Origin: Candidatus Zixiibacteriota bacterium
Lineage (GTDB): Bacteria; Zixibacteria; MSB-5A5; GN15; FEB-12
Length of the DNA stretch: 48,280 bases
NCBI GenBank assembly: GCA_024276275.1
Contig: JAJRXM010000027.1
Location: 1 to 48,280 of the forward strand
Direction: 5' to 3'
Shown here: piece after piece, positions 10,994 to 46,961 of the stretch
How the letters are laid out: each line of letters begins with the position of its first letter
Position numbering within the stretch: position 1 is the first letter of the stretch
The notes under the pieces: model-generated
The model's database searches: none
What the model was told of the DNA's origin: nothing
The model's input: the letters and a program-made list of their open reading frames with translations, nothing else
Program-made: the position numbers and the translations under genes

Positions 10994-11449
10994 TTACTCT
11001 GAGTATTCTGCCCAGCTCGTTGATGTCTCCCAGACTCTAACCGAAACCAGTTTTACGTTATCCCCCAGCTTAAACCGTGATTTATCAGATTTACGGTACT
11101 CAACCAATCTTTCGTTACATCGGTCATAAATATCTTTCGCAATAACTTCAGTTGTCGGGTCTAAATTTTTATAGCCTATTACCCTGTCATCAAAATCATC
11201 TTTAAACTGCTGATAATTAGGATCATCAGTATTCATACAAATGGCATGGTCGAATTTTTCGACAAAATCAATACATGCTTCTTTGATAATTTTAAAATCA
11301 CAGACCATTTCATTACTGTCCAAATTGTCCGATTCCAAGATAAATTCTATTCTTCTGCTGTGTCCGTGGGGATATTTACAGTTATCAGGATGTTTGGAAA
11401 GCATGTGGGCATTTTCCACTTCCAGCGTTTTACAAATTCGATAAGGCAT
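10994..11449 (-). CDS. queD: QueD: 6-carboxy-5,6,7,8-tetrahydropterin synthase
   Basis: The start is set at the ATG at 11449, which AGGAACC precedes and which lies one base after the queE stop. The longer reading from 11497 overlaps queE and lacks support. The product has 151 residues. The zinc ligands are His in ENAHML and the two His of YPHGHS, and the catalytic Cys lies in DNCKYPHGH. FDHAIC and DPTTEVIA are the other conserved patches, and VRVWETSTSW lies near the end. It converts 7,8-dihydroneopterin triphosphate to 6-carboxytetrahydropterin, the first committed step to preQ0 and queuosine. It is the last gene of the queFCED run. Confidence 0.93.
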   Translation of the reverse strand: MPYRICKTLEVENAHMLSKHPDNCKYPHGHSRRIEFILESDNLDSNEMVCDFKIIKEACIDFVEKFDHAICMNTDDPNYQQFKDDFDDRVIGYKNLDPTTEVIAKDIYDRCNERLVEYRKSDKSRFKLGDNVKLVSVRVWETSTSWAEYSE

Positions 11450-11450
11450 T

Positions 11451-12143
11451 TTAGGTTCCTTTTTTATTCCCGAATAATTCAATATGCAGCCGATCACAAT
11501 AACGAAACCCGTACTCTTTACACATCTCGGCTACTAGTAGTTTTTTTGTATCTATCTCTTCTTTTGTGATTCCTTGCGGCATCAACAGAACTTTATACGG
11601 TGCTATATCTCGCTTTAATTGAGCAAGTAATTCTAAAACTTCATTTACATCGTTTTGAGAATCTATTACAAACTTTAACTGATAATCGTAATTGTCAATC
11701 CATTCTTGTATAATCAAAAGATTTATTCTATCACGTTCATGTCGTTTTAGCCAGCTTTCCGAGGCTCTTTTATCGGGGGTAGAATTTGACATCTTTGGGC
11801 TGATAGATGCAAGGTCGCAATCTATATTTTCGGGACTAATTGTTCCGGCAGTTTCTATCGTAATATGACAATCTTTATCTTTTAAACTCATGCATAGCTG
11901 TTGTATCTCTTTAGCAATCATCGGCTCTCCCCCTGTTACAACGACGTGCTTACATTTTTTCGAGTCAACATGAGAAACTATCTCATCTATTGTCATATCT
12001 TCGCCTGTCGGCTCCCATGATGCGTAATCGGTGTCACACCAGTTACACCGAAGATTACATCCCGAAGTTCGAATAAACAACGACGGAAGACCGGTAAGCA
12101 TTCCTTCACCTTGGAGAGAATAAAAAATCTCTGATATCAGCAT
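11451..12143 (-). CDS. queE: QueE: 7-carboxy-7-deazaguanine synthase (radical SAM)
   Basis: The 230-residue protein opens with the family motif SEIFYSLQGEG. The radical-SAM cluster motif is CNLRCNWC (Cys-x3-Cys-x2-Cys) around residues 29-36, and VVTGGEPM is the SAM-binding glycine motif near 68-75. It makes 7-carboxy-7-deazaguanine from 6-carboxytetrahydropterin using SAM and magnesium. It lies between queC (41-base gap) and queD (one-base gap), consistent with a single transcript. Confidence 0.95.
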   Translation of the reverse strand: MLISEIFYSLQGEGMLTGLPSLFIRTSGCNLRCNWCDTDYASWEPTGEDMTIDEIVSHVDSKKCKHVVVTGGEPMIAKEIQQLCMSLKDKDCHITIETAGTISPENIDCDLASISPKMSNSTPDKRASESWLKRHERDRINLLIIQEWIDNYDYQLKFVIDSQNDVNEVLELLAQLKRDIAPYKVLLMPQGITKEEIDTKKLLVAEMCKEYGFRYCDRLHIELFGNKKGT

Positions 12144-12184
12144 TCAATTTTCGCTCATTATGACAAAATTAAAGAAGTTGTCTT

Positions 12185-12871
12185 TTAAGTCTCATCTTGT
12201 GAATTATCCCGAGCAGTCATATATACAGTCGGGTCGGTAATACCGGATAATTCAAAAGCTTCTTTACGTTCAACACAAGTACCGCACAAACCACAATGTA
12301 GTTCAAAACCTTTGTAACAGGAATATGTATATTGATACTGCAGATCAAAAGTCTGCCCGAGTCTGACAATTGCTGTTTTATCTATGTCAATAAACGGTCT
12401 CAGAATTTGTATATTGGCAAATGTTCCTAGCTTGACCGCATCGGCAAATGATGTCATAAAATCTTCACGACAATCAGGATATATAGTATGATCGCCCGAG
12501 TGAGCAGCAATTATTATTGCATCTGCTTCAATACTCTCGGCATATCCGGCCGCTATAGCAAGCATAATACCGTTCCGAAACGGCACTACCGTTTTTCTCA
12601 TCGACGGTTCCTGATAATGTCCGTCAGGAATCTGACCGCCTGATTTTAACAAGTCAGACTTAAAGAAATCATTCATAAATGAGAGTTCGATTATCTCATG
12701 TTGTACGTTAAGAGTGTTACAGTGATGTGAGGCAAACTTCAGTTCTCTCTTATTATGTTTTGAGCCATAGTTAAAACTGACCGCAGTTACCGTTTCATAC
12801 TTTTTAACGGCATCATAAAGTGCTGTGGTAGAGTCTATTCCACCGCTTAAGAGAACTAATACTTTATTCAT
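12185..12871 (-). CDS. queC: QueC: 7-cyano-7-deazaguanine (preQ0) synthase
   Basis: The 228-residue protein has the PP-loop ATP pyrophosphatase motif LSGGIDSTTA at 8-17 and FNYGSKHNKRE. A C-terminal zinc site uses the Cys residues of YSCYKGFELHCGLCGTC. It turns 7-carboxy-7-deazaguanine into the nitrile preQ0 with ATP and ammonia. It starts 8 bases after the queF stop codon, with only a weak ribosome-binding site, so translational coupling to queF is likely. Confidence 0.95.
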   Translation of the reverse strand: MNKVLVLLSGGIDSTTALYDAVKKYETVTAVSFNYGSKHNKRELKFASHHCNTLNVQHEIIELSFMNDFFKSDLLKSGGQIPDGHYQEPSMRKTVVPFRNGIMLAIAAGYAESIEADAIIIAAHSGDHTIYPDCREDFMTSFADAVKLGTFANIQILRPFIDIDKTAIVRLGQTFDLQYQYTYSCYKGFELHCGLCGTCVERKEAFELSGITDPTVYMTARDNSQDET

Positions 12872-12879
12872 TTCGATTG

Positions 12880-13290
12880 CTATTTTCGGGTATATTCTCG
12901 TTGAACTGTTGTTTGAATACCGCCTCGTGAATTAAACACCCCGACCAGTTTTAGTCTGTTCGGTTTAATTACTTTGACAATATCATCAACAACTTTATTC
13001 ACAACATTCTCGTGAAAAATACCTTTATTACGATATGCCAGAAGATATTCTTTAAAACTTTTTAGTTCAATACAATTTTCAGAGGGAGCATAATTGAGAG
13101 TCAAAACAGCAAAATCAGGAAGTCCTGTCTTTGGGCAGACACAACTAAACTCAGGAATAGTCATCGTAATCGAATAATCTCTATCAGGGTAGATATTTTC
13201 AAATATCTCTATTTTAGGAGTTTTCCAGTCGCGGATATCATCCTGTTTTCCTTCATAACTTGATTCATTCATGTCGTGATTATACGCCAA
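12880..13290 (-). CDS. queF: QueF: preQ0 reductase (type I, unimodular)
   Basis: The 136-residue protein is the short YkvM-like form. The catalytic Cys lies in FSCVCPKTGLPDFA, which also carries the conserved Asp. The QueF signature ELKSFKEYLLAYRN binds NADPH and substrate, and GIFHENV supplies His and Glu. It reduces the preQ0 nitrile to preQ1 with two NADPH, the form exchanged into tRNA by Tgt. The start at 13290 gives MAYNHDM; a second ATG at residue 7 is possible. It lies 21 bases after the MATE gene stop. Later genes tgt, queA and queG/queH are not in this window. Confidence 0.93.
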   Translation of the reverse strand: MAYNHDMNESSYEGKQDDIRDWKTPKIEIFENIYPDRDYSITMTIPEFSCVCPKTGLPDFAVLTLNYAPSENCIELKSFKEYLLAYRNKGIFHENVVNKVVDDIVKVIKPNRLKLVGVFNSRGGIQTTVQREYTRK

Positions 13291-13311
13291 AACTGCATAA
13301 AAAGCAATAGG

Positions 13312-26374: not shown

Positions 26375-27067
26375 ATGAAAACTATTCTTAAAATTATAAT
26401 TGTATTAAGCTTGTCAATTGGGTCTACTTTAGTGGCTCAACCTGAACTTGAAATTTTGCAAAGTGAATTTTCATTCGGTATGATACCTCAAAACTCCACC
26501 GTAGCTCGTTCTTTTTGGTTTAAATCCATAGGTGATGATACTTTAAAGATACTTGAAATTAAAACAGGATGTACATGTGCTATAATGCCGTTAAAACAAG
26601 ATTTTATATTACCGGGTGACAGCATGGAAGTTAAGTTTCTTTGGGATGTTAAAAAGCGGGTTTTTCAGATTGGACGTTATCCATACATTTTTACAAATGC
26701 TTCTGATGAGCCGTATCGAATGGCTTTGACCGGAGAAGTTCATTTGACTCTTGATTCAGCGAAACCTGTTTCAATTACTCCATATAAATGCGAATTATCA
26801 AAAATTAATGATATTTCTATCAATGAGGTTGAATTTACTCTTACAAATAGAACAGATCAAGATTTACAAATAACCCTTTTAACACCTTCCGTTGATGAAT
26901 GTATTATTGAAATGCCTCTCATGATTGCTGCTAACGGAAAAGCTGTCGGAAAAATTAAAGTAAAAGATGAATTCCTCGATAAAGAATTTAAAGGCTCTAT
27001 AACAATAGTATTTGATAATACGAATAATACCCGTATTTCAATACCGTATAGAAGAAAAATATTTTAA
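26375..27067 (+). CDS. DUF1573 exported protein with C-x-C motif
   Basis: The 230-residue protein has a signal peptide of about 22 residues ending in VAQ. A DUF1573 (Ig-like, ASH-related) domain follows: FSFGMIPQNSTVARSFWFKS, then KILEIKTGCTC with Cys66 and Cys68, and ILPGDSMEVKF. The rest is a second beta domain. DUF1573 proteins of the FCB group usually carry a CGCT motif whose role is unknown; redox or metal binding is possible. A close paralogue follows 39 bases after its stop. Confidence 0.85.
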   Translation: MKTILKIIIVLSLSIGSTLVAQPELEILQSEFSFGMIPQNSTVARSFWFKSIGDDTLKILEIKTGCTCAIMPLKQDFILPGDSMEVKFLWDVKKRVFQIGRYPYIFTNASDEPYRMALTGEVHLTLDSAKPVSITPYKCELSKINDISINEVEFTLTNRTDQDLQITLLTPSVDECIIEMPLMIAANGKAVGKIKVKDEFLDKEFKGSITIVFDNTNNTRISIPYRRKIF

Positions 27068-27106: not shown

Positions 27107-27844
27107 ATGAAAAAGTTAATCTTACTAACAGGTGCCTTACTCATTCTGTTGGGAACAACTCAAATTTCAGCAGCTCCTCGCTTGACAATGCCTGAATCTG
27201 CTTTCAATTTTGGGTATGCTCCACAAAATTCTAAAATCAGTCATGAGTTCTGGCTTCATTCAACAGGTGATGATTCCCTGAAAATAATTAAAATTGTCCC
27301 CGGTTGAGGATGCACAAAAGCTCCTTTAGAAAAAAAGGAACTGGCTGTCGGTGACAGTACAAGACTTGAAATTATTTTCAGTACAAAAAAATATAAAAGC
27401 CATATTACCAAAAAACCTAAAATTCAAACGAATGAAGGTCCACCTGATAAAAGGGTTCAAATAATTGTTGATGTTGTCGCGAGACCTGACTCAACATATC
27501 CGTTAGTTATGAAACCGTATAAACTCGACTTATCGCAATTCGGTGAAAAACTGAGAGATAAAATCAATTTTACTATTTCTAATGTCTCAGATGAAAAAAT
27601 TGATCTCACTATAGTTTCGTATGCGAGCAAGTTTTTTGAGATTACTATGCCGTCATCTGTTGATGCCGGAAAAACTATTTCATGCAGCTTAAAGCTGAAT
27701 AAAGATATTTTAAAACAAAACTTTGAAAAATCTTTTACTATTGAAACAAGTGACTCTAAAAAAACAAGATTTACTGTACCGGTGAAACGTCAAGTTAGGT
27801 CTTCTACACAGGCTGATACAAAAACGGTAAAACGCGGAAAATAA
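27107..27844 (+). CDS. DUF1573 paralogue with in-frame TGA at the first Cys of the CGCT motif; candidate selenoprotein
   Basis: The ATG at 27107 gives a signal peptide (KKLILLTGALLILLGTTQISA) and FNFGYAPQNSKISHEFWLHS as in the neighbour. Codon 67 is TGA (27305-27307). It is followed in frame by GCTKAPLEKKELAVGDST and an uninterrupted frame to TAA at 27844, 245 codons in all counting the TGA. Alignment with the upstream paralogue puts the TGA exactly on Cys66 of KTGCTC. The family motif CGCT would become UGCT. A hairpin at 27322-27339 follows: 6 bp, with a loop of six bases whose second base is G, starting 20 bases after TGA. This fits the general bacterial SECIS layout. A nonsense mutation of a Cys codon is the alternative. 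The piece starting at 27509 is only the C-terminus. Confidence 0.7.
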
Positions 27845-27904: not shown

Positions 27905-29344
27905 TTATTTTTCAAAGAGGTCCATGAAACCTGATAAAATCCAATCAGCCCACTGTTTATCATAAACCTCACCTGTTACATCTGAATGTACTAAGCGATA
28001 ATCATCATCCCCATAGTAATCTTCAAATACAAAGATTGACCCGGTACCTTCCTTTGAGTGGTAATACCAAATAACAAATGGATTACCCGAACTGGGAGCT
28101 TCTTTATCATCACGTTCTTCCCACATACCGTATTCCATAAATATACGTCCACGGTCTGTAAGCCAGCCGTTTGTCAATTTTTCGTTTGTTGAATAATTTT
28201 TATTTGCATATAAATACCGTCTGATTATTTCTTCCCTGAATTCATTTTTATCTTTACTCGGTGTAGGGTCATGTTCTGCCCACACAGCTTTAAGATAATT
28301 TTCCTTCCCTCTATCTCCAAGACTATTCAAAACTCGTTGCTCGTCGTTTGTCAGGAGGTAGGTGATTAGCTGCAGCTTTTGTTTGAGAGTAAGATTATTA
28401 TATGGATCATCATATTTTGAAATCTCCTGAGCGGCAAGCAATACTTCTTTAGGTGAAATGATAGAAATCGGAAGGTACGCCGTATCTGCTTTTTTTGTAG
28501 ATAAGTCAAAAACGATAACCTCAATAGAATAGATCCCTTTATTCCAACCGGCTATATCAATCGTTTCTACAAAGACAGCAGAACTCCCCGGTTTTTTACT
28601 TAATCTTGAGCCAAACATCTGATAGATATTCTTATCTTTGTCTAGAGCATTGATAATAAGTTGATATTTAGTTCTTGAATTTTCAGTATATTCTAAGTTG
28701 TAGATTTCTCCATAAAGAAATAGTGATTTATCAGTATCTGAAAAAACAGAGACAGGATTCATAAGCAAATTGTATCCGTTTTTATTAATCAAAGGATTTA
28801 CACGTGTTGTATCAGAACCTACATAGTCGGCATTGTAAGCCGAGCTTAAATTACTAATATTAACAGAATTTTCTTTTGAACTTTTTTCTACCGTTATTTT
28901 ATCAATATAAAATTCACCCTTTTTTTTGCTGACGACATCAATGATTGTAACTCGAGCAGAATAAATACCCGGCTTTACATATAGAGAAAGTTTATTAAAC
29001 AACCGTAAATTATTTGATTTAGCATCATCGGCAGATTTAGCAGCAACGGTGAACAAAGTATTAGTTGAGTCTATCGGGAAACCGCTAACATCCAAAAGTT
29101 CAACATGAGCAAAAATACGTGCATAATAATTAGTGCCGGTAGAGTCTGGCATATAAAATTCAAAGTTGTTTCTATTGAGAGTAAACGGGAACTCTACCAA
29201 TGACACAGAATCAAGGTCAGGATCATTGTAAACAGTCGCATTGGCATAAACGGCAATGTCTGTTAAGTTAATCTCTGAGGATACTGCAATTTGAGTAACA
29301 CAACATGATAATAATAAAACAAAAATAAGACTCTTTATATTCAC
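27905..29344 (-). CDS. GWxTD domain protein (exported)
   Basis: The 479-residue protein starts at GTG 29344, with AAGGAG about 10 bases upstream. A signal peptide ends near AVSSE. Two beta-rich domains fill about 25-310 with Asp/Lys-rich strands, and a short helix (LTLKQKLQLITYLL) follows. The GWxTD region is EHDPTPSKDKNEF, then NGWLTDRGRIFMEYG with the Gly-Trp-x-Thr-Asp motif, and VIWYYHSKE. GWxTD proteins are typical of Acidobacteriota, Gemmatimonadota and FCB-like phyla, and their biochemical role is unknown. It is the last of two GWxTD genes downstream of the ABC permeases. Confidence 0.85.
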   Translation of the reverse strand: MNIKSLIFVLLLSCCVTQIAVSSEINLTDIAVYANATVYNDPDLDSVSLVEFPFTLNRNNFEFYMPDSTGTNYYARIFAHVELLDVSGFPIDSTNTLFTVAAKSADDAKSNNLRLFNKLSLYVKPGIYSARVTIIDVVSKKKGEFYIDKITVEKSSKENSVNISNLSSAYNADYVGSDTTRVNPLINKNGYNLLMNPVSVFSDTDKSLFLYGEIYNLEYTENSRTKYQLIINALDKDKNIYQMFGSRLSKKPGSSAVFVETIDIAGWNKGIYSIEVIVFDLSTKKADTAYLPISIISPKEVLLAAQEISKYDDPYNNLTLKQKLQLITYLLTNDEQRVLNSLGDRGKENYLKAVWAEHDPTPSKDKNEFREEIIRRYLYANKNYSTNEKLTNGWLTDRGRIFMEYGMWEERDDKEAPSSGNPFVIWYYHSKEGTGSIFVFEDYYGDDDYRLVHSDVTGEVYDKQWADWILSGFMDLFEK

Positions 29345-29364
29345 CTTATAGACTCCTTTTGATT

Positions 29365-30681
29365 CTAATATCTTTGAAATAACCCGTCATACGGATATAT
29401 CAATCGGTATTCACAGTCTTCATTTACATCAACAAATACAAACCTCAGGTATTTGGAACCGTGATAATAATGCCATTCCTGATAAGGTCTTTTTTCAGGT
29501 ACAACAGGATAGTCATCAATCTGATCAGGTTCACCGTACATAATATAGATCCGACCACGGTCTGTCTTCCACCCGTTTCCAAACAGGTATGAGAAATTTA
29601 TATTTGCAACAGCTATTCTTCTATAGAATTCACTTTTAGCTTCATTTTCGTACGTTCCGGGCGTAGGGTCTTGTTTCTCCCAATACGCATTGATTGCCTC
29701 TAATCGTTCGGTATATGTTTCTTTTCCTTTTAGAGCATTTACTTCTTCTTTAGATGCGATTATTTCAATCTGTTTTATCAACATCTTGTAATCATATTTT
29801 ATTAGAGCTTGAGGTGTCCAGGCAATTTCAAAATCTTTATACTTTGTTGTGATTTTTTTGTTTCGTTTTCCCCGTAGTGTAATTATCAGTTCATAATGTC
29901 CGGGGCGTAAATCTTCAATAGCAATTTCTCGAAATTGACGTATCACAGGTCCCTCAAAAGCAGTTGTGAGCGAATCACGGTAGAGCATCCCTTTGGAGTC
30001 ATGCCTTAGGACAGTTTCAACTTTGACATCTTCAAACTTTTCTGAACCTTGATAGATTTCCATGTAGAAATAAATTGACATGTTTTTGTCGGTTCCGTAT
30101 TTATGACGAACAGAAGGTATCAATTGATGGCTTCCCTTATCAAAGACCGAGCCTTCTTCTGTGGAAGGAGCAATTGCTTGGATTAACTCAATATCTGATA
30201 TCTTTGGTTTCTTATTTTTATATTTTTTTACTTTTACCTTAAACTTCTTTATTTTTTCTATATTGTGAATCGGGTCGTATAAGCGGGCAATAACTTCGTA
30301 TTTCCCTTCCTCTACCATAAAGTTTACCTGGTTGGTGCGATAATCTGTCTTAGATGTTGTTTTTCTTTTATCTTTTACCCGCACAAGCTGGCTATGTTGA
30401 TAACTATCGTATTTTTTATTCTTTTTGAATAAATCAATTGAGATTTCATACTCTGCTTCAAAGGCATTATCAATCTCTTCAAAACTAAGAGTAGCATTAA
30501 AAATCTGATAATAAACTTCTAATCGTGCTATTTTTTCTGCTGAGTCTGATTTAAAAAGAGCATAGTCTAGGGCGTAGTATTCGTTTTTATCACTACCTCT
30601 TGACGTTCTAAAAAATTGTGCAGATACTGTAACAGCACAAAGAGTGATTATAATAAATAGTAGTAGTTTTTCTTTTCTCAT
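29365..30681 (-). CDS. GWxTD domain protein (exported)
   Basis: The 438-residue protein has a signal peptide (LLLFIIITLCAVTVSAQ). A beta-rich domain follows: SRGSDKNEYYALDYALFKSD, YYQIFNATLSFEE, and Lys-rich strands. The C-terminal GWxTD module contains WEKQDPTPGTYENEAKSEFY and FGNGWKTDRGRIYIMYGEPD. The same layout in the next gene indicates an old tandem duplication with divergence; the two share the DPTP, GW and DRGR positions. It begins 20 bases upstream of its paralogue. No SD is seen before the ATG. Location is probably periplasm or outer membrane; no enzymatic motif is known for the family. Confidence 0.85.
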   Translation of the reverse strand: MRKEKLLLFIIITLCAVTVSAQFFRTSRGSDKNEYYALDYALFKSDSAEKIARLEVYYQIFNATLSFEEIDNAFEAEYEISIDLFKKNKKYDSYQHSQLVRVKDKRKTTSKTDYRTNQVNFMVEEGKYEVIARLYDPIHNIEKIKKFKVKVKKYKNKKPKISDIELIQAIAPSTEEGSVFDKGSHQLIPSVRHKYGTDKNMSIYFYMEIYQGSEKFEDVKVETVLRHDSKGMLYRDSLTTAFEGPVIRQFREIAIEDLRPGHYELIITLRGKRNKKITTKYKDFEIAWTPQALIKYDYKMLIKQIEIIASKEEVNALKGKETYTERLEAINAYWEKQDPTPGTYENEAKSEFYRRIAVANINFSYLFGNGWKTDRGRIYIMYGEPDQIDDYPVVPEKRPYQEWHYYHGSKYLRFVFVDVNEDCEYRLIYPYDGLFQRY

Positions 30682-45041: not shown

Positions 45042-46961
45042 ATGCTGCGTAAAATCATGATTTCCACTTTAATTTTAACCTTTTGCATAACAGCAATTTC
45101 TTTTGCCGATAATACCGCAAAAGTAAAATCCCTTCTCGATGCGGGCAAATATGTCCCCGACATAGGGACATTCTTACAAATCGGAGCCAACTCCCCTGCC
45201 GGTATGAGCTGGGACGGTGACAAAGTATTTTTCCGCTCATCTGCTTCGGGTTCTTCACAAATATACCGTATTACCAACGAAGGTTGGCCGTACCAACTCA
45301 CGACCTTTGAAGACGGCATCGACTACTTTGTCCTTTCCAATAATTCTCAAATGGCAATTGTTGGAGCCTCTGTCGGTGGTTCAGAACAATCTCAGCTCTA
45401 CCTTATGGACACAGAAACAGGTCGAGTTCTTAAACTGACCGATTTTGCCGAAGTACAAATCGGCTCTGTTACCTGGGCAAAAAACGACAAATCAATTTAC
45501 TATCGTTCCAATGAAGAAAATAAACGAGATTTTTTCCTCTACGAAATGGATATTGCCACCGGAGAGTCTAAAAAGATTTTAAATAATCCGGGATACAATG
45601 CAATTGCCGACTTATCGCAAGATGGTAACAGCATGATTATTGCCAACTATACATCTAATGTAAACAACGACTTACTTCTTTTAGATTTAACTACCGGTAA
45701 GTTTAAAAAAATAACCGAAGATGACGGTGATGTAATCTACGGTTCACCGACTCTTATGCCCGACAACAAAACTATCTGGCTGGTCAGCAACGACAACAAA
45801 GACGGTGTCAGTCGTGTTGCCAAAATGACCGTAGGCTCATCAAAAGTCGAGTATGTCAATGACGGATGGATTGACCCGAAATGGGAAGTTGAAGGTATCG
45901 GCTTTTCCCGTGACTTCAAGTATATGGGAGCTCAGGTAAACGAAGAGGGTTACGAACGTTTAAAACTTCGTGAAGTTGCCACCAAAAAAAACCTACCTTC
46001 TCCCCCGTTAAACGGAATGTTAGGATTTGCGGGAGCTGATAAAAATGGTAATTTGCTTCTCTCATTCTCCGGCCCTACGTATGCTCCTGAATGCTGGTTG
46101 TGGAATCCTCATACTGAAGAACTCAAGCAACTTACTTTTTCAATTTATGCGGGTATCGACCGTAAGATTTTTACCGAACCAAAACTGATTAAATATAAAA
46201 CTTTTGACGGTCTCGAGATTCCAGCCTTTTTATATTTACCTGCCGACTATGACGGTAAACCGATTCCGTTTATAGTTTCTGCTCACGGTGGTCCTGAAAG
46301 TCAGTTCCAACCCGGGTTTATCCGTAATTTTCAATACCTGATGTTAAACGGTGTCGGAATTATCGCACCGAACCCCCGTGGTTCTTCGGGCTACGGTCGC
46401 GACTATATGAATCTCGACAACTATAAACTCCGTAAAAATTCCCTGAAAGATTACAAAGCTGCCGTTGAATACTTGATTGACAACAATTATTCCAAACAGG
46501 GACAGATTGCTATACGGGGCGGCTCCTATGGTGGTTATGTTGTTTTGGGTATGATTACCGAATATCCTGATTTGTTTAATGCTGCTATCGATGTTGTCGG
46601 TATTGCAAATTTTAAAACATTTTTACAAAATACAAAACCGTATCGTCGTGCTTTACGTGAATCAGAATACGGTCCATTGTCTGACCCTGAATTCTTAGAC
46701 TCGGTCTCTCCTATTTATAAAGCACATCTGATTAAAACTCCGTTGATGGTTATCCATGGTGAAAATGATCCTCGTGTTCCTGTTGATGAAGCCCGTCAGA
46801 TTATTAAGGCTGTTGCCGACAACGGCGGGATTGTTGATTCTCTGATTTTCCCTGATGAAGGTCACGGCACATCAAAACGGGTTAATGTTATTGAGTCTTA
46901 CAGAAGACAAGTAGCGTTTTACAAAAAACATTTATTACCACTTGATATGAAAAAAGAATAA
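45042..46961 (+). CDS. Exported S9 family peptidase (prolyl oligopeptidase/acylaminoacyl peptidase type)
   Basis: The start at ATG 45042 is supported by AGGAG eight bases upstream; the TTG at 45036 is too close to it. A signal peptide (STLILTFCITAISFAD) shows export. The N-terminal half is a beta-propeller with WD40-like repeats (SWDGDKVFFRSSASG, VTWAKNDKSIYYRS). The C-terminal alpha/beta hydrolase has HGGPESQ, catalytic Ser in RGGSYGGYV, Asp in GENDPRVPVDEA and His in PDEGHGTSK. It cleaves short peptides after Pro or hydrophobic residues in the periplasm; the exact specificity is inferred. Confidence 0.95.
   Translation: MLRKIMISTLILTFCITAISFADNTAKVKSLLDAGKYVPDIGTFLQIGANSPAGMSWDGDKVFFRSSASGSSQIYRITNEGWPYQLTTFEDGIDYFVLSNNSQMAIVGASVGGSEQSQLYLMDTETGRVLKLTDFAEVQIGSVTWAKNDKSIYYRSNEENKRDFFLYEMDIATGESKKILNNPGYNAIADLSQDGNSMIIANYTSNVNNDLLLLDLTTGKFKKITEDDGDVIYGSPTLMPDNKTIWLVSNDNKDGVSRVAKMTVGSSKVEYVNDGWIDPKWEVEGIGFSRDFKYMGAQVNEEGYERLKLREVATKKNLPSPPLNGMLGFAGADKNGNLLLSFSGPTYAPECWLWNPHTEELKQLTFSIYAGIDRKIFTEPKLIKYKTFDGLEIPAFLYLPADYDGKPIPFIVSAHGGPESQFQPGFIRNFQYLMLNGVGIIAPNPRGSSGYGRDYMNLDNYKLRKNSLKDYKAAVEYLIDNNYSKQGQIAIRGGSYGGYVVLGMITEYPDLFNAAIDVVGIANFKTFLQNTKPYRRALRESEYGPLSDPEFLDSVSPIYKAHLIKTPLMVIHGENDPRVPVDEARQIIKAVADNGGIVDSLIFPDEGHGTSKRVNVIESYRRQVAFYKKHLLPLDMKKE

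Follow-up and report, generated by a model that had tools for sequence, protein, structure and literature searches.

A TGA codon within a DUF1573 gene

The locus considered here raises the question of whether an in-frame TGA within a gene for a DUF1573 domain protein is read as selenocysteine (Sec) and, if so, by what RNA signal this reading is specified. It lies in a 48,280-nucleotide stretch of DNA from a Candidatus Zixiibacteriota bacterium (henceforth the window), for which a first-pass annotation, made from the sequence alone, had put forward a candidate selenoprotein with TGA in place of the first Cys of its CxC motif. The reading frame is as described there, with the TGA at codon 67 as the sole stop within its 245 codons, and in the alignment this TGA stands opposite the first Cys of the G-C-T-C motif in the paralogue immediately upstream (Table 1). 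On the evidence of the decoding machinery, the exchange of TGA and Cys in one alignment column and an RNA structure selected only in the TGA-bearing genes, we consider it very probable that the gene encodes a selenoprotein in which the UGA is read as Sec67, with the SECIS lying within two successive hairpins, P1 and P2.

Table 1. Features of the predicted selenoprotein locus, in window coordinates
Feature	Coordinates	Strand	Remarks
Upstream Cys-type DUF1573 paralogue	26375..27067	+	GCTC motif; without P2 hairpin; DUF1573 match 5.1e-18
Predicted DUF1573 selenoprotein gene	27107..27844	+	245 residues, Sec at 67; ATG 27107, TAA 27842-27844
Predicted Sec UGA codon	27305..27307	+	Opens U-G-C-T motif; same column TGA in 55/61 relatives' genomes, Cys in paralogues
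Cys69, second residue of U-x-C pair	27311..27313	+	TGC/TGT in 62/62 aligned Sec genes
SECIS hairpin P1, proposed spacer helix	27320..27341	+	22 nt; core 27322-27339 is the hairpin of the first-pass annotation
SECIS hairpin P2, proposed SelB-binding element	27344..27358	+	GCUGUC-GGU-GACAGU, GGU triloop 27350-27352

The protein obtained by reading through the TGA matches the Pfam family DUF1573 (PF07610) at 5e-20, with a score of 71.8 bits that is above the gathering score of 26.1. The source genome contains four DUF1573 matches above the cut-off, of which only this one has a TGA. Ordinary annotation of such genes would end at residue 66 or begin at an internal ATG (here 27509). Further premature stops in the window had been held to make plain mutation a live alternative; those that are TGA were checked, and the eight other TGA-interrupted frames proved to be shadows, none of them coding. 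Seven are antisense to longer ORFs and the eighth (45208-45579) overlaps a longer same-strand ORF in a different frame, leaving the DUF1573 gene, among the TGA-interrupted frames checked in the window, as the one that is coding.

Distribution of the TGA and Cys versions

A search of 61 relatives' genomes recovered 62 distinct DUF1573 genes with a TGA, all in the same column and coming from 55 of these genomes, with Cys versions alongside them, which is the TGA/Cys exchange that the first-pass annotation had named as a possible source of support. The same column has TGA in further genera of the same family as well as in other families of the class, and DUF1573 homologues with Cys at the Sec position occur within the lineage. 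In a tree of 141 sequences the Cys versions are interspersed among the Sec versions, with 19 changes by parsimony. One of them, from genome G032, clusters with three congeners that have Sec (support 0.997), has TGC at the Sec column and retains both hairpins; judged from its sequence, Sec gave way to Cys here and left a fossil SECIS, a kind of relic known previously (PMC1794560). The Cys versions of L025 and of the second copy at L069 retain SECIS-like hairpins and so are probably recent Sec-to-Cys changes.

A covariance model combining P1 and P2 finds matches in 109 of the 127 genomes of the class, some of the weaker ones being Cys paralogues. Among 20 distant stretches that were fetched, 17 contain TGA-bearing DUF1573 genes and two, both low-scoring, have the Cys form only, while the remaining one was not recovered by the search pattern used. 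The predicted DUF1573 selenoproteins are extended from a single listed example to approximately 100 genes across a class. At two loci (L194 in G097 and L195 in G096) three DUF1573 selenoprotein genes are predicted to lie in a tandem array, and a P2 or near-P2 hairpin accompanies every one of them.

Two hairpins downstream of the UGA

The 57 nt starting at the TGA align without gaps, and 100 Sec genes were compared for pairing and codon use; P1 corresponds to columns 16-37 of this alignment and P2, which begins two bases past P1, to columns 40-54. P2, whose loop starts 42 nt from the UGA, is the stronger of the two and had been missed by the first-pass annotation. In coding terms it reads GCT GTC GGN GAC AGC. 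All six of its pairs are present in 93 of the 100 Sec genes and at least five of the six in 98, with GGN at the loop position in every one of the 100. The Ala codon is GCT in 97 of 97 genes with Ala and the Val codon GTC in 91 of 91 with Val; in three genes Val GTC is replaced by Ile ATC, all of them with a compensating change of Asp GAC to GAT. P2 is absent from nearly all Cys paralogues, in which its Val is mostly replaced by Pro or a different residue, with free codon choice. Hence, from sequence comparison, P2 seems to have imposed a residue (Val) in addition to the choice of codons. The P2 15-mer occurs 60 times in the 61 genomes, as against a single occurrence for the reversed control; three of the 60 copies, in three genomes, lie in unrelated genes or frames and are ascribed to chance.

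The single hairpin that had previously been equated with the SECIS is the core of P1 (UCCUUU-AGAAAA-AAAGGA), with its loop 20 nt from the TGA. This hairpin is real, and the folding and covariation analysis that had been suggested for it bears it out. Across the alignment GCUCC pairs with GGAGC, and the pair in the middle (U-A, A-U or G-C in most cases) tracks Glu, Val or Ala at 11 codons past the Sec, such that the amino-acid change is accompanied by a synonymous change of the Ala codon; no link between the middle pair and the residue 11 codons on is found in the Cys paralogues. Paired cells with both bases changed number 32, compared with 13.9 (sd 2.5) after shuffling, a value reached in 0 of 500 shuffles. 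RNAalifold on the 57-nt alignment favours pairs within columns 4-20 over P1. With a UGA in the A site the bases of these columns are inside the ribosome, and P1 was therefore assessed by codon permutation instead: its mean folding energy is -9.6 kcal/mol versus -6.6 after within-column synonymous codon permutation (z -11.6, 0/200), and the same permutation of the Cys paralogues gives a z of -0.5. Both the covariation and the lowered folding energy are thus confined to the Sec genes.

P1 is also imperfect, with 79% of its cells paired and another pairing register in some genes. Its loop varies in sequence and size, being AUCUAA in a gene of the same genus (L011). A G within the first two loop bases had been taken as a SECIS mark of this hairpin; the loop AGAAAA of the window conforms to this, but columns 24-25 (+20/+21) are devoid of G in 22 of the 100 Sec genes. 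Two Sec paralogues, L087 and L088 (G055 and G056), lack P2 and have a hairpin with a GGA loop at the P1 position, at approximately +20.

Proposed decoding and its alternatives

The selD genes of the same lineage supply a comparison for these hairpins. Their SECIS is one hairpin with a 6-7 bp stem and a G[GU]N triloop placed exactly 20 nt from the TGA in 23 of 23 Sec-selD genes, 21 of which have one non-standard pair or none among seven, and the hairpin is not formed in eight Cys-selD genes. P2 shares the stem length and triloop, but the selD signal is a single hairpin at +20 without a counterpart of P1. The resemblance of P2 to the selD SECIS, the spacing that remains when P1 is subtracted (42-22=20) and the GGA at +20 in the P2-less L087 and L088 together lead us to propose P2 as the SelB site and P1 as a spacer. 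Under this proposal the UGA would be decoded by tRNA-Sec and SelB to yield an exported DUF1573 protein with two Ig domains and a U67-G-C69 motif, SelB would bind P2 through its 6-bp stem and GGU triloop, and P1 would fold away its 22 nt so as to bring P2 to the 20-nt spacing that SelB uses on selD. We regard this division of roles as likely; the hairpin recognized initially is then probably half of the signal, the spacer half, and its interpretation as the entire SECIS is not supported, its loop not being conserved. With slightly less confidence, we favour viewing this arrangement as a distinct class of bacterial SECIS, one in which SelB would read a GGU-loop hairpin at 42 nt while a covarying 22-nt hairpin restores 20 nt, and which would be class-wide in Zixibacteria within one gene family.

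The main alternative is that SelB binds only P1, as a SECIS at the canonical +20, with P2 as an accessory or pausing structure. P1 does covary at the expected distance, stands alone in L087 and L088, and often has a G among its first loop bases near +20, and hence in many genes it could be what SelB binds. We nevertheless judge this unlikely, if the most credible of the competing readings, given the variable loop of P1 and the 22 genes without G at its start, as opposed to the invariant GG of the P2 loop, the tighter constraint on P2 as a whole and the match of the selD hairpin in the same genomes to the P2 form.

Far less probable is a reading of the UGA by means other than tRNA-Sec, whether as another residue or as plain read-through, or a short UGA-terminated product that is also functional. 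Sec codons often give rise to truncated products, which lends the latter some plausibility. However, the residue aligned with the UGA in paralogues is Cys, the hairpins resemble the selD SECIS and the source MAG possesses the Sec machinery for which the first-pass annotation had advised a search: a tRNA-Sec (63.7 bits, cut-off 47), selA (E 1.6e-124) and selB (E 1.7e-98), all on one contig (C3), in addition to a selD with its own in-frame TGA as Sec codon. This selD (L096, G000:C34:28860-29774) also has a single in-frame TAA 3' of its Sec codon, at a position occupied by sense codons in three same-genus genomes; this TAA calls for some caution and may reflect either an error in the consensus or a genuine mutation. 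Single-base errors or mutations of this kind do occur, but the chance that the DUF1573 TGA arose by nonsense mutation, or by an error of sequencing, in a decaying gene is negligible, as plain mutation and an alternative code are both ruled out by the same-column TGA in 55 of 61 genomes and a dN/dS of 0.11-0.13 downstream of the TGA (versus three congeners), which indicates purifying selection past the stop and hence coding selection on both sides of the UGA, and the RNA structure is specific to the TGA genes.

Several relatives (L109-L116) encode, besides a Sec-SelD elsewhere in the genome, another SelD of the Cys type, within a longer open frame (~560-750 aa). No TGA was seen in the loci read for molybdopterin enzymes of the source genome.

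Relationship to described selenoproteins and SECIS models

The belief, expressed in the first-pass annotation, that no selenoprotein was known from this domain family has to be abandoned: DUF1573/pfam07610 with a UGC motif is listed as a predicted selenoprotein in the tables of two reviews, with one example accession each, and these credit it to a 2007 Olavius-symbiont study (PMC9312934, PMC13188914). The protein of the deltaproteobacterial symbiont of Olavius algarvensis belongs to the same Pfam family and has the same U-G-C motif, but it comes from another phylum and is given no SECIS in its entries in these reviews, whereas Zixibacteria have approximately 100 genes with the two-hairpin signal. 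The consensus bacterial SECIS model, as outlined in one of the reviews, places the loop 16-37 nt from the UGA and acknowledges some genes as not fitting (PMC13188914). P2 agrees with the bSECISearch model described there in its short stem (the consensus being 4-16 bp), its 3-nt loop (3-9 nt) with G as the first base, and thus within the first two apical-loop bases, and its C-G closing pair; it differs in that its loop is at 42 nt, outside the 16-37 nt range, with a second conserved hairpin in the gap. The P1 loop, at approximately +20, is at the consensus distance, yet is without a conserved G.

No two-hairpin bacterial SECIS was found in the open literature, and a search of the same literature for Zixibacteria with selenoproteins or selenocysteine led to one paper, where they appear only in a set of reconstructed genomes. 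Within the open literature searched, it is the layout of the signal that is new, the DUF1573 selenoprotein family having already been predicted. Such a layout would be missed or misplaced by a spacing-limited SECIS search, and it presents a clean test case for how SelB measures distance.

The DUF1573 protein and its genomic neighborhood

On inspection of its sequence, the protein has a hydrophobic N-terminal segment resembling a signal peptide. AlphaFold2 models the read-through product as two Ig-like domains (pLDDT 80.8, pTM 0.68), with the CxC where a short strand begins, next after strand 3 of domain 1. Structural neighbors of this model are ASH/PapD-like and 2qsv-like; 2qsv itself, a protein of unknown function from Porphyromonas gingivalis, shares the two-domain Ig-like fold over 188 aligned residues (Z 11.0, rmsd 11.2), but is only 12% identical. 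These matches are to generic Ig/PapD-like folds and indicate no function, and a PDB sequence search with the protein returned no convincing relative. A tripeptide of sequence CGC is known to mimic the chemistry of disulfide isomerases, which hints at a redox role outside the cytoplasm. We tentatively suggest that the protein might be a periplasmic selenol/disulfide redox protein, which could cycle through a U67-C69 selenenylsulfide.

A gene family located downstream on the opposite strand is common to 61 of 81 Sec-DUF1573 loci. In the window that place is occupied by two convergent GWxTD-domain proteins at 27905-30681, downstream of the predicted selenoprotein gene. Elsewhere in the window (10997-13311) there is a row of queuosine-precursor genes coding for a 6-pyruvoyl tetrahydropterin synthase (PTPS) family protein, a radical SAM protein, QueC and QueF.
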